Origin: an uncultured Fodinibius sp.
Lineage (GTDB): Bacteria; Bacteroidota; Rhodothermia; Balneolales; Balneolaceae
NCBI GenBank assembly: GCA_913056235.1
Contig: CAJXMW010000001.1
Span: 620,001 to 684,000, forward strand
Length of the DNA stretch: 64,000 bases
Direction: 5' to 3'
The notes below the pieces were generated by a model. It was not told the DNA's origin and did no database searches. It saw only the letters and a program-made list of their open reading frames with translations. Each line of letters starts with the position of its first letter. Within the stretch, counting starts at the first letter, position 1. Of the stretch, positions 10,448-31,742 are shown in pieces. The translations under genes and the position numbers were made by a program.

Positions 10448-11059
10448 TCAGGCCGTCAGCCAATTGAGAATGGTATCCAGAATCAGTCCCTTGCGATTAG
10501 TGTTGGCGGTACTATCGCCGGATGTGCCGTTCGTGTTTAGCAACGACCGGTTGATCGTATCCGAAAGTACTGGATAATAACAAAGCGAAAAGATGTTAAG
10601 CAGCAAGTTTTGTGCATCCACCGAAGCAATCTCATAATTCGAGGCCGCCTCATCTAGTTCTTCATTGAATGAGACCAGCTCCAACTGAATGCGCTCCTCA
10701 AAAATAGGCTGCAGCCAATCAGGCTTGCGATTGCTTTCGGTGATCACGAAAGCCAACACCTGCGGATGCGTTTCCGATTTATCCAGACAGGCAACCACCA
10801 ACTGCTCAATCTTTTTAAAGAGTGGCAGATCCTGATCCAGGATGTCACCCAATCCCCCAAAAATTTCGCCCACCGACTGGGTATACACCCGCTCAAAGAG
10901 CTCCTTCTTGGTGTTAAAATAGTAGTGGATCATCGCTTTTGTTGCTCCAATCTGATCCGCAATCTTCTGGAGCCTTGCTCCTTCGAACCCATGTTTGAAA
11001 AATTCCCTGCGTGCTGCGTTGATAATTTCCGTCCGCGTATCCGCCGTCTGATCTGCCAT
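10448..11059 (-). CDS. TetR/AcrR family transcriptional regulator
   Basis: A 203-residue one-component repressor. The N-terminal HTH is clear: TEIINAARREFFKHGFEG, then LQKIADQIGATKAMIHYYF, then NTKKELFERVY. The ligand-binding C-terminal domain is helical and not diagnostic. It is divergently transcribed from the NfeD-slipin pair; the 149-bp gap holds a near-perfect 16-bp palindrome (11128-11143) and a perfect 10-bp palindrome (11066-11075) just upstream of its own ATG. Autoregulation and control of NfeD-slipin are inferred from this layout. Confidence 0.88.
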   Translation of the reverse strand: MADQTADTRTEIINAARREFFKHGFEGARLQKIADQIGATKAMIHYYFNTKKELFERVYTQSVGEIFGGLGDILDQDLPLFKKIEQLVVACLDKSETHPQVLAFVITESNRKPDWLQPIFEERIQLELVSFNEELDEAASNYEIASVDAQNLLLNIFSLCYYPVLSDTINRSLLNTNGTSGDSTANTNRKGLILDTILNWLTA

Positions 11060-23835: not shown

Positions 23836-23849
23836 TTGCAGGTTTGCAA
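23836..23849. promoter_or_regulatory. TTGCA-N4-TGCAA dyad (candidate activator site P1)
   Basis: Dyad TTGCA-GGTT-TGCAA centred at 23842.5. It is identical in half-sites and N4 spacing to the two dyads at 27534-27547 and 27566-27579. The partner dyad P2 is centred exactly 32 bp downstream. An overlapping third copy (TTGCA-ATCC-TGCAA, 23844-23857) also exists because the region is itself a hairpin. Confidence 0.55.
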
Positions 23850-23867
23850 TCCTGCAATGAATTGGGA

Positions 23868-23881
23868 TTGCAGACCTGCAA
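23868..23881. promoter_or_regulatory. TTGCA-N4-TGCAA dyad (candidate activator site P2)
   Basis: Dyad TTGCA-GACC-TGCAA centred at 23874.5, 32 bp (about three helical turns) from P1 and about 135 bp from the -24 GG of the sigma-54-like promoter at 24007-24023. The distance and pairing match those at the YceI promoter. Confidence 0.55.
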
Positions 23882-24006
23882 TATCTTTATTCTTTCTTTC
23901 CAATCTCTCGATACCCCTTATTTTTTCGGCATTAAAAAATGCATCCTAATAAGAGTTAAAGGGGTTTTTTCTTTTTTTTGAAAAATATTTCCTGTATTAG
24001 CCATAC

Positions 24007-24023
24007 TTGGAATGAATGTTGTA
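24007..24023 (+). promoter_or_regulatory. sigma-54-like promoter of the porin gene
   Basis: TTGGAATG-AATG-TTGTA matches the -24/-12 consensus in the GG and TTG elements with correct 12-bp GG-to-G(C) phasing, but the -12 C is T. The predicted start near 24034 gives a leader of about 108 nt before the porin ATG. Support comes from the paired upstream dyads. Confidence 0.4.
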
Positions 24024-24141
24024 GCATTAGTATCTCAAACATAAACACTAACAAAAACAGTTAGGCGATTTCAAAAAAGTTACTATAACCCGAAACGACT
24101 TTCACAGATACAAAAGTAAACTCTAAACACATATTACTATT

Positions 24142-25425
24142 ATGAAACTTTCAATTAAACATATCGGTCTAACGCTTCTTGGCCTCTTTCTGATGGCAGG
24201 AAGTGCTTTCGCTCAATTTGATCGGGATTTACAATACTTTACCAATCCGGATCAACGAGGACTCAACCAGTTTGAAGCTCCATTCCATACAGACGTGGAA
24301 TTTGACGGTGTTAACGTACGAGTTGGCGGTGCCAATACACTGCAATTCCAGGGACTAAGTCACGACAATGACGCGAATGGCCTGTCCGATCTCGAGAGCA
24401 ACTTTAACCTTGCTACTTCTAACCTAGACCTTGATGTAGGTTTGGGAGATGGGCTTCGCATGCACTTACGTACGTATTTAACCTCTCAACACCACACTGA
24501 GACCTATGTAAAAAGTGGATACATGCAGGTTGATCGCCTTGACTTCATTCAGGAAGGACTCCTTTCTGGTCTAATGGATAAAGTTCGCATTAAAGTGGGT
24601 CACATGGAGCTCAACTACGGCGACAACCACTTCCGCCGTACTGATAATGCTTTTGCTATCCACAATCCATTTGTAGGTAACTATATTATGGACTCTTTCT
24701 CCACTGAGGTTGCCGGTGAGGTATACTACTATGACAGCGGCCTCATGGCGATGTTTGGTCTCAGCAATGGTAAACTCAATCAAAGTGTAACGGATTATGC
24801 AGGATCGGGAATAAAAACTCATGCCACTGTTTACGGAAAGCTGGCTTATGACAAAACCTTTGGCGAAGGTCTTCGCTTCCGTCTCAGCGGCTCTATCTTA
24901 AATGTTTCCAACTCTCCATCCATTTACCTTTACTCAGGAGACCGATCAGGTTCTCGATATTATTCTGTCATGGATGATGGATTCCGTTCAGGACGATTCG
25001 CCCCTGCTTTTACCCCAGGATACGGTCAACCACCTGCAGCAGGCGAAATGACAGCCTTTATGCTTAACCCGTTCGTTAAGTTTGGTGGTTTTGAGTTCTA
25101 CGGTGTCTTCGAAAACACGACTGGAAACATCAAAGGCAATGACAGCCGAACCTTTAACCAGTATGGTGCAGAAGGCCTTTATCGTTTCGGAGCCAATGAA
25201 GATTTCTACCTCGGCCTTCGCTACAACCTTGTTGACGGCGAAATGACCAGCGGCGACATTCAGATTGATCGCTTTAACATCGGCGGCGGATGGTTCCTGA
25301 CCAAAAATGTTATGGCCAAGCTTGAGTATGTAACGCAATCTTACGACGGAGACGGTTACAGCGGTACAAAATACGCCGGCGGACAATTTGACGGTGTAAT
25401 GCTCGAAGCCGTTATCAGTTTCTAA
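24142..25425 (+). CDS. outer-membrane porin-like beta-barrel protein
   Basis: A 427-residue exported protein with signal peptide ending SAFAQ (about residues 1-25) and then repeated amphipathic strands such as NLDLDVGLGDGLRMHLRTYL, VRIKVGHMELNYGDNHFRR, FEFYGVFENTTGNIKG and AKLEYVTQSY, ending in the C-terminal pattern VMLEAVISF with a terminal Phe, the outer-membrane insertion signal. It resembles phosphate-selective or general porin-type proteins, but I cannot name a family with certainty. It has a long leader, an upstream sigma-54-like promoter with paired dyads, and a strong terminator after it, so it is monocistronic. Confidence 0.78.
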   Translation: MKLSIKHIGLTLLGLFLMAGSAFAQFDRDLQYFTNPDQRGLNQFEAPFHTDVEFDGVNVRVGGANTLQFQGLSHDNDANGLSDLESNFNLATSNLDLDVGLGDGLRMHLRTYLTSQHHTETYVKSGYMQVDRLDFIQEGLLSGLMDKVRIKVGHMELNYGDNHFRRTDNAFAIHNPFVGNYIMDSFSTEVAGEVYYYDSGLMAMFGLSNGKLNQSVTDYAGSGIKTHATVYGKLAYDKTFGEGLRFRLSGSILNVSNSPSIYLYSGDRSGSRYYSVMDDGFRSGRFAPAFTPGYGQPPAAGEMTAFMLNPFVKFGGFEFYGVFENTTGNIKGNDSRTFNQYGAEGLYRFGANEDFYLGLRYNLVDGEMTSGDIQIDRFNIGGGWFLTKNVMAKLEYVTQSYDGDGYSGTKYAGGQFDGVMLEAVISF

Positions 25426-25965: not shown

Positions 25966-26690
25966 GGGTCCAGTGAAGCAAACACTTCATAGAGAATCCT
26001 CCCGGGGGTGAGCAGCAAGATCTTATAAAAGAAATCGTTTCGATGATTAAAGCAAGATTTTGTGTCTTTCAAATGCAGATACATGCTTTCTTAGGAACGT
26101 CACTAAATTATGTCAGTCGACATTTTGCAAAGCTCCAGAACGATTCAATGCCCATTAATATGTCGACACTCATCCTAGCCATAGTTCACACGGTAGTACT
26201 TGCCATATCCGACATCTACCAAACCGTCATGCCCGCGCCAACCATCGCTGTGAATAACACTGGCTGGGCCGACTTTGCCCATATAACGCGCTGCAAGTTC
26301 TCCTTGGGCATCCAGGACGATCTTATTGCACACTTATCCTTGGCATTTAAAGATGCCGGAGACGATCGTTTTCCCGATACCCCACGGCCGGGTTTGCCTA
26401 GAATCCGCTTAGGACCAACGTAGGATTCATCGACTTCAACGGTTCCGGCTAGTGGAGCTTCTTGCTCCAACCAACGAGCGATCTTCTGGCGAAGCTGCCA
26501 GCAAATGTCAGTAACCGATATTGGGAAATGCCAGTCAGTTCAACGGGATCTATAGCAGTAAAATCCATTAAAAATACCGAATCAGTTGCCGAAAATTGAC
26601 TCCACAAATTTTTGATGTTTATGATACTTACTATTCATTGTATAGCAATATCTTACAAAGATTTACACCCTACTATGCTTCACTAGACTC
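25966..26690. mobile_element. dead IS1595-family (IS1016-like) insertion sequence
   Basis: A 725-bp element bounded by 15-bp terminal inverted repeats (25966-25980 and 26676-26690, 13 of 15 matching) and flanked by the 7-bp direct repeat TTAAATA (25959-25965 and 26691-26697), close to the 8-bp duplication known for this family. It encloses one frameshifted transposase on the minus strand. The size matches short IS1016-like members. Confidence 0.75.
25990..26638 (-). pseudogene. IS1595-family transposase, multiply frameshifted
   Basis: Reading the minus strand across frames restores a DDE transposase of the ISXO2/IS1016 type. In order: start MNSKYHKHQKFVESIF at 26638; TAIDPVELTGISQYR; TDICWQLRQKIARWLEQE; the first catalytic region GTVEVDESYVGPKR; IVSGIFKCQG; SVIHSDGWRGHDGLVDVGYG with the second Asp; HINGIESFWSFAKCRLT with the third acidic position; and the C-terminal NHRNDFFYKILLLTP. 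At least four frame changes and several stops (for example before DECRHING) separate these blocks, so no active protein is made. The longest intact piece is 84 codons at 26216-26470. Confidence 0.85.
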
Positions 26691-26999: not shown

Positions 27000-27374
27000 T
27001 CAGTTTTTAACCGCTTTGGGCACTGATATTTTCTGAATAACTGAAAGCAGTTCGTCAAAATCCAAGGGTTTAAATACAAAGTCTTCTGCTCCATGCAATA
27101 ACGCCTTCTGGGTCATCTCAGCCTCGGCATAGGAGCTAATAAGAATAATTTTAAGGTAAGGCACTTCCTCTTTGAATATCTGCAGCATGGATAACAATCC
27201 AGGCATCTCGCTCTCCAGAATTAAGATGCTGATCTTTTCACTATCAAGCATCTCCATAACTTCTGACTTTCTGCTCGCAGAGAAACATTGATATCCCTCC
27301 TCGCTGAGCACAAAATGCAGCGAGTCTCGGACAGCCTCCTCTTGGTGAAATATCAGAATGTTGTGAGTTTTCAT
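27000..27374 (-). CDS. degenerate receiver-domain protein (pseudo-receiver)
   Basis: A stand-alone CheY-like domain of about 124 residues. I prefer the ATG at 27374 (MKTHNILIF) because the predicted sigma-54 transcript starts near 27405, too close to the alternative ATG at 27392. Compared with working receivers, the acidic pair after strand 1 is His10-Gln11 (ILIFHQEE), the phospho-acceptor is Glu54 (ILILESEMPG) and the switch Thr is Ser, while the Lys in FVFKPLDF is kept. It cannot be phosphorylated normally; Glu54 may mimic the active state. EGYQC and KPLDFDE are shared with the receiver of the NtrC-type regulator at 29.1-30.4 kb, suggesting a duplicated domain. Confidence 0.8.
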   Translation of the reverse strand: MKTHNILIFHQEEAVRDSLHFVLSEEGYQCFSASRKSEVMEMLDSEKISILILESEMPGLLSMLQIFKEEVPYLKIILISSYAEAEMTQKALLHGAEDFVFKPLDFDELLSVIQKISVPKAVKN

Positions 27375-27415
27375 TGGAAGTATTTTTAGCATTGCATTAC
27401 ATCACTTTTATAAAT

Positions 27416-27431
27416 GCAATTTATGGGCCAA
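27416..27431 (-). promoter_or_regulatory. sigma-54 promoter facing the pseudo-receiver gene
   Basis: On the minus strand TTGGCCCA-TAAA-TTGC matches the -24/-12 consensus with correct GG-to-GC spacing. The predicted start is near 27405, upstream of the pseudo-receiver ATG. It is back to back with the YceI promoter. Confidence 0.6.
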
Positions 27432-27701: not shown

Positions 27702-27718
27702 TTGGAACGGCAATTGCA
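27702..27718 (+). promoter_or_regulatory. sigma-54 promoter of the YceI operon
   Basis: TTGGAACG-GCAA-TTGCA differs from the -24/-12 consensus (TTGGCACG-N4-TTGCA) at one base only. GG lies at 27704-27705 and GC at 27716-27717. The predicted start near 27729 gives a leader of about 37 nt before the first YceI ATG. Confidence 0.75.
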
Positions 27719-27765: not shown

Positions 27766-28383
27766 ATGAAATCTTTATTAACAACTATACTTACAATTTT
27801 ATTTGCCGTCGGCGGTGCATACGCACAATCCAACTCATACGTTCTGTTAGATAAAAGCACAATGATTATCGAAGGAACTTCTACCATTCACGACTGGGAG
27901 TGCGATGTAGAAGATATTCAGGCAGACGTTACTTTTGATGAGTCGGTAATGGAAGCGGATGCTAAACAGAATCCCGTCACCAATCTTTCTCTCACTATTC
28001 CCGTGAATAGCATTGAGAGTGGTAAAGGGGGCATGAACAAAAAAATCTATGGCGCCCTCAAAGACGACAAGCATCCCAACATAACTTTTGAGTTGAAAAA
28101 TGCTGAGATCGAACAGTCCAGCACACAAGCTACCAACGGTCAGGAGCCTAGCTTTCAACTGATGGCGACTGGTATGCTCACTATTGCTGGAACTACCAAC
28201 GAAGTATCATTTCCTGTTAAAACGTATGTCCAGGACGGAAATACCTACAAGTTTACCGGGAACTATGAGCTCAATATGAAGGATTATAAAGTAGACCCAC
28301 CATCTGCCGTATTCGGTACTATCAAGAGCGGCGAAAAGGTGACAATATCTTTCGAAGTATATTTTTCAAAGAATAGCATATAA
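27766..28383 (+). CDS. YceI-family periplasmic lipid-binding protein, first copy
   Basis: A 205-residue exported lipocalin-like protein; family members bind polyisoprenoid or other amphiphilic lipids in an extended beta-barrel. Signal peptide about 1-20 ending AYAQ. Signatures are GTSTIHDWECDVEDIQADV, LTIPVNSIESGKGGMNKKIY, the KHPNITFEL strand and the C-terminal KDYKVDPPSAVFGTIKSGEKV. It starts a two-gene operon (7 nt to the second copy) behind a sigma-54-type promoter. Its role, perhaps lipid carriage or envelope stress, is inferred. Confidence 0.9.
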   Translation: MKSLLTTILTILFAVGGAYAQSNSYVLLDKSTMIIEGTSTIHDWECDVEDIQADVTFDESVMEADAKQNPVTNLSLTIPVNSIESGKGGMNKKIYGALKDDKHPNITFELKNAEIEQSSTQATNGQEPSFQLMATGMLTIAGTTNEVSFPVKTYVQDGNTYKFTGNYELNMKDYKVDPPSAVFGTIKSGEKVTISFEVYFSKNSI

Positions 28384-28390
28384 CCCGATA

Positions 28391-29071
28391 ATGATGCGTC
28401 CCGCTTTTTTATCCCATCCCTTAATGGATTACTTTAAACGGTGCAGCGGCTTACTCTTTTTGCTGTTCCTAATCCTCATGAGTACATCCCGAAGCGGGGC
28501 GCAATCATTTAATCCCGGCAATATCACCATCGAAAAAGGTGGCAAAATCTGGATTGAAGGGGATGCCGGTATGATTTCGTATCAATGCAGTGCCAAAGAG
28601 CTTTCGGGGGTTGGAAGCATAAACAATACCGAAAATCCCCAGAATACTATAAAAGGCCAAGACGGTGATGTTGCAATATCTGTCTCACTGCCTGTTAAAG
28701 CATTAAAATGCGGGAAACGCGCCATGGATAAAGACATGTATGAGGCGCTTAAATATGAACAGTTCCCCACGATTAAATACAAACTCCTCGATGCCAAGCT
28801 GGCTGAATCGAATCAAGACACCACCGGATGGATGGACATCCGTACACGTGGTATTATGGAAATAGCCGGGGTACAGGATACCACTTCATTCATCATTCAG
28901 GGAAAGTTACTAAGTGAAAATCGGTTCAATGTAAAAGGTACCCAGCAAATAAATATGGATACCTACAATATTGATCCTCCCAGTGCGATGTTTGGATTAA
29001 TACGTGCTGACAAGAAGCTTAGTATTAACTTCGATGTAACGGTCAAACTTAAGGGGCAACAAACTAAGTAG
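28391..29071 (+). CDS. YceI-family protein, second copy
   Basis: A 226-residue paralogue of the preceding gene. The N-terminal hydrophobic segment (about 17-33, LLFLLFLILMSTSRSGAQS) is a signal peptide; ATG 28391 or 28424 (MDYFKRCSG) may be the start. The YceI blocks are diverged: IEGDAGMISYQCSAKELSGV replaces STIHDW, then VSLPVKALKCGKRAMDKDMY, KYEQFPTIKYKLLDAKL and the C-terminal DPPSAMFGLIRADKKL. Two cysteines (in YQCSA and LKCGK) are unique to this copy. It is cotranscribed with the first copy and convergent, with a 4-nt gap, with the NtrC-type regulator. Confidence 0.85.
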   Translation: MMRPAFLSHPLMDYFKRCSGLLFLLFLILMSTSRSGAQSFNPGNITIEKGGKIWIEGDAGMISYQCSAKELSGVGSINNTENPQNTIKGQDGDVAISVSLPVKALKCGKRAMDKDMYEALKYEQFPTIKYKLLDAKLAESNQDTTGWMDIRTRGIMEIAGVQDTTSFIIQGKLLSENRFNVKGTQQINMDTYNIDPPSAMFGLIRADKKLSINFDVTVKLKGQQTK

Positions 29072-29075
29072 GTAG

Positions 29076-30434
29076 TTACTCCGACAGCCCCAATCGCTCC
29101 ATTTTGCGATAGAGGGTAGACGGGTCGATCCCCAGCAGCCGTGCGGCCTCCGACTTATTTCCATCCGTTCGCTTTAGTACACTCTGGATATGATGCTTCT
29201 CAAACACCTGCATCGCCTCATCCAGTTTGTCGTTATCCATACTAAAATCCTGATCGCCCGCGGACTTTCGAAGGGATGCAGGCAGATCTTCCAATGCCAG
29301 GTAGTCGCCGTCGCTCAGTAACACCGCCCGCTCAATCACATTCTCAAGCTCGCGCACCTGCCCTTTCCACTCGTAGGCCATCATAGCCCCCATAGCTTCG
29401 CTGGTGATCCCCTTGAGGTTACGCTTAAGCTCTTTGTTGTACTTTTGTAAAAAGTGATGCGCCAGCAATGGAATATCATCCCGGCGCTGCTGCAGGGGAG
29501 GCAGCGAAATTTCAACAACATTCAACCTATAATAAAGATCATCGCGAAAGTTGTCGTTTGCCACCTCTTTTCCCAGATCCTTGTTGGTGGCCGAAATAAT
29601 ACGCGTATCGAATGAAATAGTCTTGTTGGAGCCGACCGGCTTTACTTCACGTTCCTGTAACACACGTAATAAATTCACCTGCAAATTTAGCGGTATTTCG
29701 GCCACCTCATCCAAAAAAACCGTGCCGCCATTGGCTGCTACAAAAATACCATCCTTGTCGGAATCGGCCCCGGTATATGCCCCTTTTTTATGACCAAAAA
29801 GTTCCGATTCGACTAGGTTCTCCGGGATAGCCCCACAGTTGATCGCCAGGAAGGGATTCTTGGCGCGGTCGCTGTTGGAGTGAATAGCCCGGGCCACAAG
29901 TTCTTTACCCGTTCCGCTCTGACCAGTAATCAGCACATTGCTGGTAGCTTGACTGACGCGCTCTACCATTTTATATACGCGTTTCATTTCAGGGCTTTCG
30001 CCAATAATATGATTGAAGTTGTACTCTTTGTCGATCTGCTCGCGCAAATATTTGTTTTCCTGTATCAGGTTTTTGTGCTCTAGCAGGTTCTCTATCCGGA
30101 TAAGCACCTCATCAAAATCCAAGGGCTTCAGGATATAATCGGCCGCACCTTTGCGCAGAGCCCTGATGGCCGTCTCCACGGTTGCATGTGCTGTAATGAT
30201 AATCGTAAGCGTCTCAGAGGATTTCTGCAGGGCATGCTCCAGCACTCCCAGCCCGTCAACTTGAGGCATCTTCAAATCCGAAATAATGATATCAAAACTG
30301 TGTTCGTCAATGGCTTTGATGGCAGCCTTGCCATCCTCTACAGCCGTACATTGATATCCTTCATCTTCGAGTACAATAGTAAGTGATTCACGAATTCCAG
30401 ATTCGTCATCTGCTATTAAAATAGATCCTTTCAT
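29076..30434 (-). CDS. NtrC-family sigma-54-dependent response regulator
   Basis: A 452-residue enhancer-binding activator. The receiver domain has the acidic pair in IADDESG, phospho-acceptor Asp53 (IISDLKMP) and Lys103 (ILKPLDF). The AAA+ domain has Walker A GQSGTGKE (171-178), the sigma-54 contact loop as GAYTGA (218-223, the Tyr variant of GAFTGA), Walker B GGTVFLDEV and the arginine-finger region FRDDLYYRLNVVEI. A Fis-type HTH lies at the C-terminus (GNKSEAARLLGIDPSTLYRK). The sensor kinase lies just upstream (3-nt gap). It is the obvious candidate for the TTGCA-N4-TGCAA dyads upstream of the YceI and porin genes. Confidence 0.95.
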   Translation of the reverse strand: MKGSILIADDESGIRESLTIVLEDEGYQCTAVEDGKAAIKAIDEHSFDIIISDLKMPQVDGLGVLEHALQKSSETLTIIITAHATVETAIRALRKGAADYILKPLDFDEVLIRIENLLEHKNLIQENKYLREQIDKEYNFNHIIGESPEMKRVYKMVERVSQATSNVLITGQSGTGKELVARAIHSNSDRAKNPFLAINCGAIPENLVESELFGHKKGAYTGADSDKDGIFVAANGGTVFLDEVAEIPLNLQVNLLRVLQEREVKPVGSNKTISFDTRIISATNKDLGKEVANDNFRDDLYYRLNVVEISLPPLQQRRDDIPLLAHHFLQKYNKELKRNLKGITSEAMGAMMAYEWKGQVRELENVIERAVLLSDGDYLALEDLPASLRKSAGDQDFSMDNDKLDEAMQVFEKHHIQSVLKRTDGNKSEAARLLGIDPSTLYRKMERLGLSE

Positions 30435-30437
30435 AAA

Positions 30438-31742
30438 TTACTTATTGGCCGGTAATTGAATGATAAATGTAGCTCCTTCTCCGTAAGTTGATTCAACGCT
30501 GATGGATCCCCCGATTTTATTAACGATACCGTGGCTCACTGAGAGCCCAAGTCCCGTACCGCTGCCCACACCTTTAGTAGTAAAAAAGGGTTCAAAAATA
30601 TGTGATTTGTGCTCCTCCTTTATTCCTTTGCCTACATCAGAAATGCTCATTACCACCTGCTCATCTTGCGATTCGGTGGTAATTGTTACGTGTGGATCTT
30701 TTACTTCTTTCATGGCATCCACAGCATTGAGCAATAGGTTGACCAGTACCTGGTGGATTTGGTCGGGCACACATGACACCAAGGGCAAGTCCTCGTCCAG
30801 ATTCATCTTAAAATCCACATCCCGGCAGCGGGCATCGTGCTTTAACAGCCCAACCGCCGATTCCACTATCTCGTTGATCTGCACATTTTCGGCCTGCATG
30901 CTGGAGGGACGAGAAAAGTCCACGAGGTCGCGGACAATCTTATTAATCCGCTGGATATGCTCCCGGACTTTTTTAAGCTGATCCTGCAAAAACTCATCGT
31001 CGGTCTTACGCTGACAAACCTGCACCAGCGAGGAAATAGCCGTAAGCGGGTTACCCACTTCATGAGCCACACCCGCCGCCATGTGGCCCACTGTAGCTAA
31101 GCGTTCTGATTGCTGTATCTGCTCTTCCCGCATTTTCAGATCCGTAAGATCCCTCAAAATTTGTGAACGGCCTACAATATCATCGTTTTCATCCCGAATG
31201 TACGACTCGGTCAGATTCACCAGCTTTTTCTCACCATTCTTGGTCAAGCGTTCTGTTTCGTAATTCTGCACGTAGCCCCGGTAGTGCATCCCAAAATCAA
31301 TGCATTCCAACTCTTTTTTTTCAATGAGTTCGTTAGGAATCAGTTTTGTTATTCGTTCTCCAATAATTTCGTCGCGGCGCCAACCCAAAATTTCTTCCGC
31401 TCCACGATTCCAGGATGTAATATTCAAATCGTTATCAATGGTTATGATTGCATCCGCCGAATGCTCGATAATATCGCTATACCGCAACCGGGTAGCTTCA
31501 AGCCGATCCTCGTAGTAGGAGCGATAGTTGTAAACCGTCCATGCTGTCCATAACATCAATAAAAGTGCAGCACTAACTCCACGACTTAAATACAACCATC
31601 GCATAGTTTCCTGGGACGTTTCGGTCAAAAGAATCTGATCAATAATCTCGAAAGCCCCAAATATAAGCCCCAAAATCAGGAGCGATGTAAAGAACAGGTA
31701 CCCCACCCGGGCCTCTCGTAAAAAACGGACAACTTCTTTCAT
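30438..31742 (-). CDS. NtrB-like PAS sensor histidine kinase
   Basis: A 434-residue membrane kinase, partner of the NtrC-type regulator it precedes. Two hydrophobic segments (about 14-36 and 51-70) are separated by only a short loop, so sensing is probably in the membrane or by the PAS domain (about 82-200; ADAIITIDNDLNITSWNRGAEEILGW in two halves). HisKA has His227 in GVAHEVGNPLTA; the ATPase domain has the N-box LLLNAVDAMKEV, G1 ISDVGKGI and G2 GSGTGLGLSVSHGI. No promoter of sigma-54 type was accepted upstream. Confidence 0.93.
   Translation of the reverse strand: MKEVVRFLREARVGYLFFTSLLILGLIFGAFEIIDQILLTETSQETMRWLYLSRGVSAALLLMLWTAWTVYNYRSYYEDRLEATRLRYSDIIEHSADAIITIDNDLNITSWNRGAEEILGWRRDEIIGERITKLIPNELIEKKELECIDFGMHYRGYVQNYETERLTKNGEKKLVNLTESYIRDENDDIVGRSQILRDLTDLKMREEQIQQSERLATVGHMAAGVAHEVGNPLTAISSLVQVCQRKTDDEFLQDQLKKVREHIQRINKIVRDLVDFSRPSSMQAENVQINEIVESAVGLLKHDARCRDVDFKMNLDEDLPLVSCVPDQIHQVLVNLLLNAVDAMKEVKDPHVTITTESQDEQVVMSISDVGKGIKEEHKSHIFEPFFTTKGVGSGTGLGLSVSHGIVNKIGGSISVESTYGEGATFIIQLPANK

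Follow-up and report, generated by a model that had tools for sequence, protein, structure and literature searches.

Paired LuxO-like sites and sigma-54 promoters point to a regulon of porin, YceI and nosZ genes in Fodinibius

The NtrC sites of the enteric glnAp2 promoter are found at -108 and -140, which is a spacing of 32 bp. Distances of ~90 and ~140 bp have also been given for these sites (PMC7408454). Vibrio LuxO is a response regulator of the NtrC family, which binds TTGCA-N3-TGCAA (PMC3352281; TTGCAWWWTGCAA in PMC10162802; ChIP-seq in PMC10328515). LuxO sites often occur in tandem, ~30 bp apart (PMC11443567), and the loop lengths at Vibrio qrr genes cluster in steps of ~11 bp (PMC4740811).

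Here we describe a locus with likenesses to both systems in a 64,000-nucleotide stretch of DNA (the window) from an uncultured Fodinibius sp. of the Balneolaceae, whose genome (G000) comprises 3.97 Mb in nine contigs. Close relatives with names include Aliifodinibius salipaludis, Fodinibius roseus, F. sediminis, F. salsisoli and F. halophilus. The features of the window are collected in Table 1.

Table 1. Sites, promoters and genes of the porin-yceI locus (positions within the window)
Feature	Position	Strand	Basis and remarks
Porin enhancer dyad 1, TTGCAGGTTTGCAA	23836..23849	.	Centre 23842.5; orthologous dyads 5' of porin in relatives; putative regulator site
Porin third dyad, TTGCAATCCTGCAA	23844..23857	.	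Shares one half-site with dyad 1, 8-bp step
Porin enhancer dyad 2, TTGCAGACCTGCAA	23868..23881	.	Centre 23874.5; 32 bp, or three helical turns, from dyad 1
19-bp hairpin formed by the porin dyads	23836..23881	+	22 bases past the phoX stop; incidental, or phoX terminator as a secondary role
Porin sigma-54 promoter, TTGGAATGAATGTTGTA	24007..24023	+	-24 GG at 24009-24010; predicted start site ~24034
Porin, 427 aa	24142..25425	+	Signal peptide and ~16 beta strands; nearest solved folds OprP/OprO
Receiver-only response regulator	27000..27392	-	PF00072; related to the receiver of the NtrC-type regulator
Divergent sigma-54 promoter, TTGGCCCATAAATTGCA	27415..27431	-	Uses the yceI dyad pair (putative); reads into the receiver-only gene; same layout in most genus genomes
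yceI enhancer dyad 1, TTGCATTGCTGCAA	27534..27547	.	Pattern search
yceI enhancer dyad 2, TTGCAAAGCTGCAA	27566..27579	.	32 bp from yceI dyad 1
yceI sigma-54 promoter, TTGGAACGGCAATTGCA	27702..27718	+	Kept in the genus and in G034, G037 and G074
YceI 1	27766..28383	+	PF04264, E 4e-17
YceI 2	28391..29071	+	PF04264, E 1.1e-5; same operon as YceI 1
NtrC-family sigma-54 activator (receiver, AAA+, Fis-type HTH)	29076..30434	-	Domain matches; putative enhancer-binding protein
PAS-domain sensor histidine kinase	30438..31742	-	Domain match; conserved neighbour; putative partner of the regulator

The locus shares with the LuxO systems the half-sites TTGCA and TGCAA, tandem sites (as at -119 and -89 of V. 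fluvialis qrr1), a response regulator of the NtrC family, sigma-54 promoters and stepped loop lengths (PMC3352281, PMC10162802, PMC11443567, PMC4740811). It differs in the spacer, which is N4 here and N3 in LuxO, so these are not LuxO sites in the described form. In place of the small RNAs of Vibrio, genes for porin, YceI, cytochrome c-nosZ and nitrite reductases are the putative targets; a linked PAS kinase is presumed to act on the regulator, and the phylum is Balneolota. Against the NCBIfam LuxO model (NF041946), for which the cut-off is 800, the regulator reaches 391 bits and is therefore not LuxO. With NtrC at glnAp2 the locus has in common tandem dyads about three helical turns apart 5' of a -24/-12 promoter, and a regulator with the order receiver-AAA+-Fis; the site sequence and the regulon are different. 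The best NCBIfam equivalog scores are those for AtoS-AtoC (kinase 319 bits, regulator 476 bits), but these are well under the curated cut-offs of 646 and 714 and the regulon is unrelated to acetoacetate metabolism. By the NCBIfam cut-offs the regulator is thus not LuxO, AtoC or NtrC.

The dyad TTGCA-N4-TGCAA occurs three times 5' of the porin gene and the outer two copies are 32 bp apart, as at yceI. A preliminary description of the window, made by a model from the letters and open reading frames, had placed dyads at these positions with exactly this spacing at both genes, which the coordinates bear out; it had overlooked the third, overlapping porin dyad, the divergent third promoter at yceI and the identity of the half-sites with those of LuxO. 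Nine copies of the perfect 14-mer are present in the 3.97-Mb genome, five of them at the porin and yceI loci. Paired dyads, defined in the genome scan as two dyads with 14-22 bp between them, occur in only two places in G000, before porin and before yceI. A reversed control pattern has no match in G000 and one match in each of three of the 92 family genomes. The clustering of the dyads is not due to chance.

The dyads and a -24/-12 promoter are kept 5' of both porin and yceI in the genomes of the genus and in G034, G037 and G074. The exceptions are a few porins of the clade in which the dyads are spaced by 23 bp, and G011, which has a single perfect dyad. In genomes that lack the regulator, porin and YceI are present as neighbours and the dyads are absent.

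The promoters were compared with the sigma-54 consensus YTGGCACG-N4-TTGCW, in which GG and GC are 10 bp apart. The yceI and divergent promoters match it well, and porin promoters of a sister family reach 13/13. The Fodinibius porin promoter has TTGTA at -12 and had been called weaker for this reason; it is indeed weaker than consensus, yet the variant is kept in the relatives of the genus, where the promoter reads TTGGAACnGATnTTGTA. The corresponding yceI promoter reads TTGGAACnnnnnTTGCA in the genus genomes, G034, G037 and G074. The -12 element of the porin promoter is also weaker in G016 and G074. From the centre of the second dyad to the -24 GG the distance is 135 bp at porin and 132 bp at yceI when computed from the coordinates, as the preliminary description claimed. 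G000 encodes rpoN (PF04552 match at C3:324114, E 8e-58).

Among 36 dyad pairs in regulator-bearing genomes, 35 have a -24/-12-like match downstream at a loose threshold of 9/13, two nosZ promoters being weak; the sole pair without one is G012:C3:123941. At a stricter threshold of 11/13, 38 pairs, including those of the sister family, yield 45 promoters. The distances from pair end to promoter cluster near 85, 95, 106, 117 and 128 bp, which gives a period of ~10.7 bp (R = 0.68 near 10.75 bp). In 20,000 simulations of uniform distances no set reached this strength (p<5e-5), although the counts come from kindred genomes and are not fully independent. The phase hardly differs between the six promoter classes (-0.1 to -1.5 bp), and six sister-family distances, one of which is 278 bp, fit the phase of the Fodinibius set (p = 0.009). 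The glnAp2 enhancer, unlike these phased ones, is described as depending less on helical facing (PMC7408454). Phasing has been reported for Vibrio qrr enhancers, and its presence here in a second phylum, with a period of ~10.7 bp, supports the view that the helix face constrains natural enhancer loops.

The regulator contains the parts of an NtrC-family protein, namely a receiver with its Asp, an AAA+ domain whose loop reads GAYTGA here and GAFTGA or GSFTGA in relatives, and a Fis-type HTH. Its close orthologs (E<1e-130) are present in exactly 15 of the 92 family genomes, always beside yceI. Paired dyads are found in the same genomes (15/15) and in none of the 77 without the regulator. A scan of the order (129 genomes) revealed three members of a sister family that also have dyad pairs at this locus. 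In these genomes the kinase, the regulator (53-56% identical), YceI2 and YceI1 are located beside porin, and one dyad pair lies between divergent yceI and porin with perfect promoters on both sides. The promoters on the two sides read TTGGCACG-N4-TTGC (TTGGCACA in one); TTGGCACGGTGCTTGCA and TTGGCACGGCAGTTGCA are examples. The arrangement suggests that an ancestral shared enhancer was split into two in Fodinibius.

About three changes of the dyad label are required on the porin tree, and well-supported branches force two of them. The naive figure of ~1.5e-17 for the co-occurrence therefore overstates independence; relatives are not independent and the association, which is strong, represents neither 15 independent events nor a single one. 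Four Fodinibius-like porin copies near the dyad clade lack dyads. Three are in genomes without the regulator altogether (G065, L020; G045, L025; G023, L026), and the fourth, a second copy in G011 (L157, G011:C47), has no such NtrC-type activator alongside. These dyad-less porins are located beside YceI genes in G011 and are extra copies in other genera. This lineage is consistent with a cassette that was transferred and whose enhancer was lost.

The dyads are thus palindromic sites 5' of sigma-54 promoters that co-occur with an NtrC-type regulator, and we consider it very probable that the pairs are the UAS of this protein, through which it would drive porin, yceI and other targets from sigma-54 promoters. 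The preliminary description had proposed a single sigma-54 regulon of porin and yceI; conservation, strict co-occurrence with the regulator and the shared enhancer of the sister family all support this. In the mechanism that we infer, the PAS histidine kinase would phosphorylate the regulator and dimers of the regulator would bind the dyads. Two dimers, bound to the same face of the DNA at a distance of three helical turns, would nucleate the AAA+ hexamer, the ~125 bp between enhancer and promoter would loop out, and the GAFTGA loops of the hexamer would remodel sigma-54 RNA polymerase waiting at the porin promoter. At the second dyad pair the same regulator would act on yceI1-yceI2 in one direction and on the receiver-only gene in the other. 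A little-studied phylum would thereby gain a complete sigma-54 regulon, with regulator, site, promoters and targets.

Porin orthologs are present in 73 of the 92 family genomes and YceI likewise in 73/92, and the two are mostly adjacent. This pair has no known function and gains a regulatory context here. The AlphaFold2 model of the porin (mean pLDDT 70.8, pTM 0.73) has a signal-peptide-like N-terminus and ~16 strands, and the best solved folds in a fold search include OprP and OprO (TM ~0.6). The label porin is based on fold and not on family, because searches for a Pfam family and for a PDB sequence match found neither. The protein may be selective for anions.

A counterpart of the receiver-only gene is found in 15/15 regulator-bearing family genomes. 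The acidic pocket of the protein is variable: in G000 the phospho-Asp is replaced by Glu, and G012 lacks the Asp. The protein may be a phosphate-independent or decoy partner, and its role is possibly phosphate competition or feedback.

Dyads with promoters in regulator-bearing genomes also precede the receiver-only gene, cytochrome c-nosZ, a Cu-nitrite-reductase-like gene, nirK and a zinc alcohol dehydrogenase gene; the preliminary description had overlooked this wider set with its nosZ and nitrite reductases. The nosZ operon of G000 (dyad L002, C1:561.9 kb) has a perfect dyad, followed 32 bp further along by a degenerate one, and the promoter TTGGCATAGGAGTTGCA. Dyads lie upstream of nosZ in 12/14 regulator-bearing genomes. 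In the 16 nosZ loci examined from genomes without the regulator there are no dyads (0/16) and no promoter, and some of the NosZ proteins encoded there are ~85% identical to that of G000. The NosZ is of the Sec-dependent clade II type (935 bits). The Cu-nitrite-reductase-like gene has dyads in 6/7 copies in regulator-bearing genomes, and nirK has them in two genomes only (G010 and G015). The G000 copies of nirK (C2:176523) and of the Cu-nitrite-reductase-like gene (C1:224156) have no dyads, so in G000 the denitrification link is through nosZ.

These targets make the regulon look linked to denitrification, since both dyads and a -24/-12 promoter are present 5' of nosZ in G000 and in most of its regulator-bearing relatives. 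The regulon would extend to cytochrome c-nosZ in G000 and to nitrite reductases and alcohol dehydrogenase in related species, and with such targets the likely signal would be nitrogen-oxide or low-oxygen respiration. On balance we lean towards a reading in which a two-component sigma-54 activator with LuxO-like sites regulates, in halophilic Balneolota, N2O and nitrite reduction along with YceI and an OprP/OprO-like porin, and carries its own feedback element, the receiver-only paralog driven divergently by the same enhancer. Searches of the open-access literature on sigma-54 with nosZ and on Fodinibius with denitrification found no description of the regulon, which appears to be undescribed. 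The mechanism is already known and nothing mechanistically new is required; within the literature searched, the novelty is in the site variant, the targets and the phylum.

The usual regulators of such genes belong to another family. nirK and nosZ are classically controlled by Crp/Fnr proteins, and the dyads resemble an FNR box, TTGxx-N4-xxCAA, in geometry. A Crp/Fnr-family protein might therefore bind the dyads, with nosZ and nitrite reductases among its putative targets, while the -24/-12 elements respond to a different activator or are decorative. The sites are, however, ~85-190 bp 5' of the predicted start sites, far from the usual -41.5, and they are paired, 31-34 bp apart. They co-occur exactly with an NtrC-type regulator and their half-sites are those of LuxO, itself an NtrC-family activator, and we regard a Crp/Fnr protein as highly unlikely. 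The putative regulon suggests that an enhancer, in place of the usual Crp/Fnr-type control, can govern clade II nosZ, which encodes the enzyme that removes the greenhouse gas N2O.

G000 encodes seven full-length sigma-54 activators, and another of these might bind the dyads in place of the adjacent one. The adjacent activator was seen to co-occur with the dyads and to adjoin them in 15 family and three sister-family genomes. Its recognition helix, IDPSTLYRKME, is invariant in 18/18 orthologs and is unlike those of the six other full activators of G000. Binding by one of these six is accordingly most improbable.

The porin dyads form a hairpin, as the preliminary description had noticed, although the stem is 19 bp with an 8-nt loop and not 17 bp. 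Its energy is -30.1 kcal/mol (z = -6.6 against shuffles); no such hairpin is formed by the yceI dyads (z = +0.7). Among the porin loci, those of G000 and G017 have a strong hairpin, and in G012, G018 and G010 it is weaker yet still exceeds shuffled sequences. G009 and G015 keep the dyads but have no hairpin, so the hairpin is not a conserved function. The idea that it might be a terminator or dispersed repeat had been raised as a caution. The genome-wide search found two pairs only, both at -24/-12 promoters, which disposes of the repeat, and termination was rejected as a conserved function. A secondary role as phoX terminator may exist in G000 and G017, in both of which phoX ends near the hairpin. 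In G017 (L155, ~11008-11051) the porin enhancer pair forms a strong hairpin, like that of the window, ~25 bases from where phoX ends, and possibly doubles as a terminator. The most plausible reading is that the hairpin arises as a by-product where two palindromic sites have complementary spacers, and that it may have been reused as phoX terminator. That the feature is solely a phoX terminator or dispersed repeat with no part in porin regulation, as its place 22 bases past the phoX stop, its T-rich tail and the similar G017 locus might imply, can practically be dismissed, for only two paired copies exist in the genome, the dyads are kept but form no hairpin at yceI and in several orthologous porin enhancers, and the dyads remain where phoX is absent or distant.

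Some further sites were recorded. Two dyad pairs in other genomes were rejected: that of G126 (L231, G126:C4:152579-152654) is an unrelated (TGCACGAC)n tandem repeat that mimics the pattern, and that of G103:C3 has neither the cluster nor the regulator alongside. Among the lone dyads of G000, L001 is inside a gamma-glutamyltransferase-like ORF, and no clear promoter pairing was found for L008 and L009. The latter (C4:440087) is an overlapping run of half-sites, TTGCAATAGCTATTGCAAATTTGCAA, 5' of a TonB-like gene with no clear -24/-12 match. Between porin and the receiver gene of the window, at 26200-26560 on the minus strand, there is an IS1595/ISXO2-like transposase remnant with stops within it (EVDESYVGPKR; PF12762 below cut-off). 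The cytochrome c-nosZ operon at G000:C1:559319-562007 (L138, L181), with its dyad and -24/-12 promoter, is accompanied by a divergent Rrf2-like regulator gene. At G000:C1:238648-238755 (L136), one dyad (TGCAGAGTTGCA) and the sequence TGGCACCACATTTGC are present 5' of a short-chain dehydrogenase gene.
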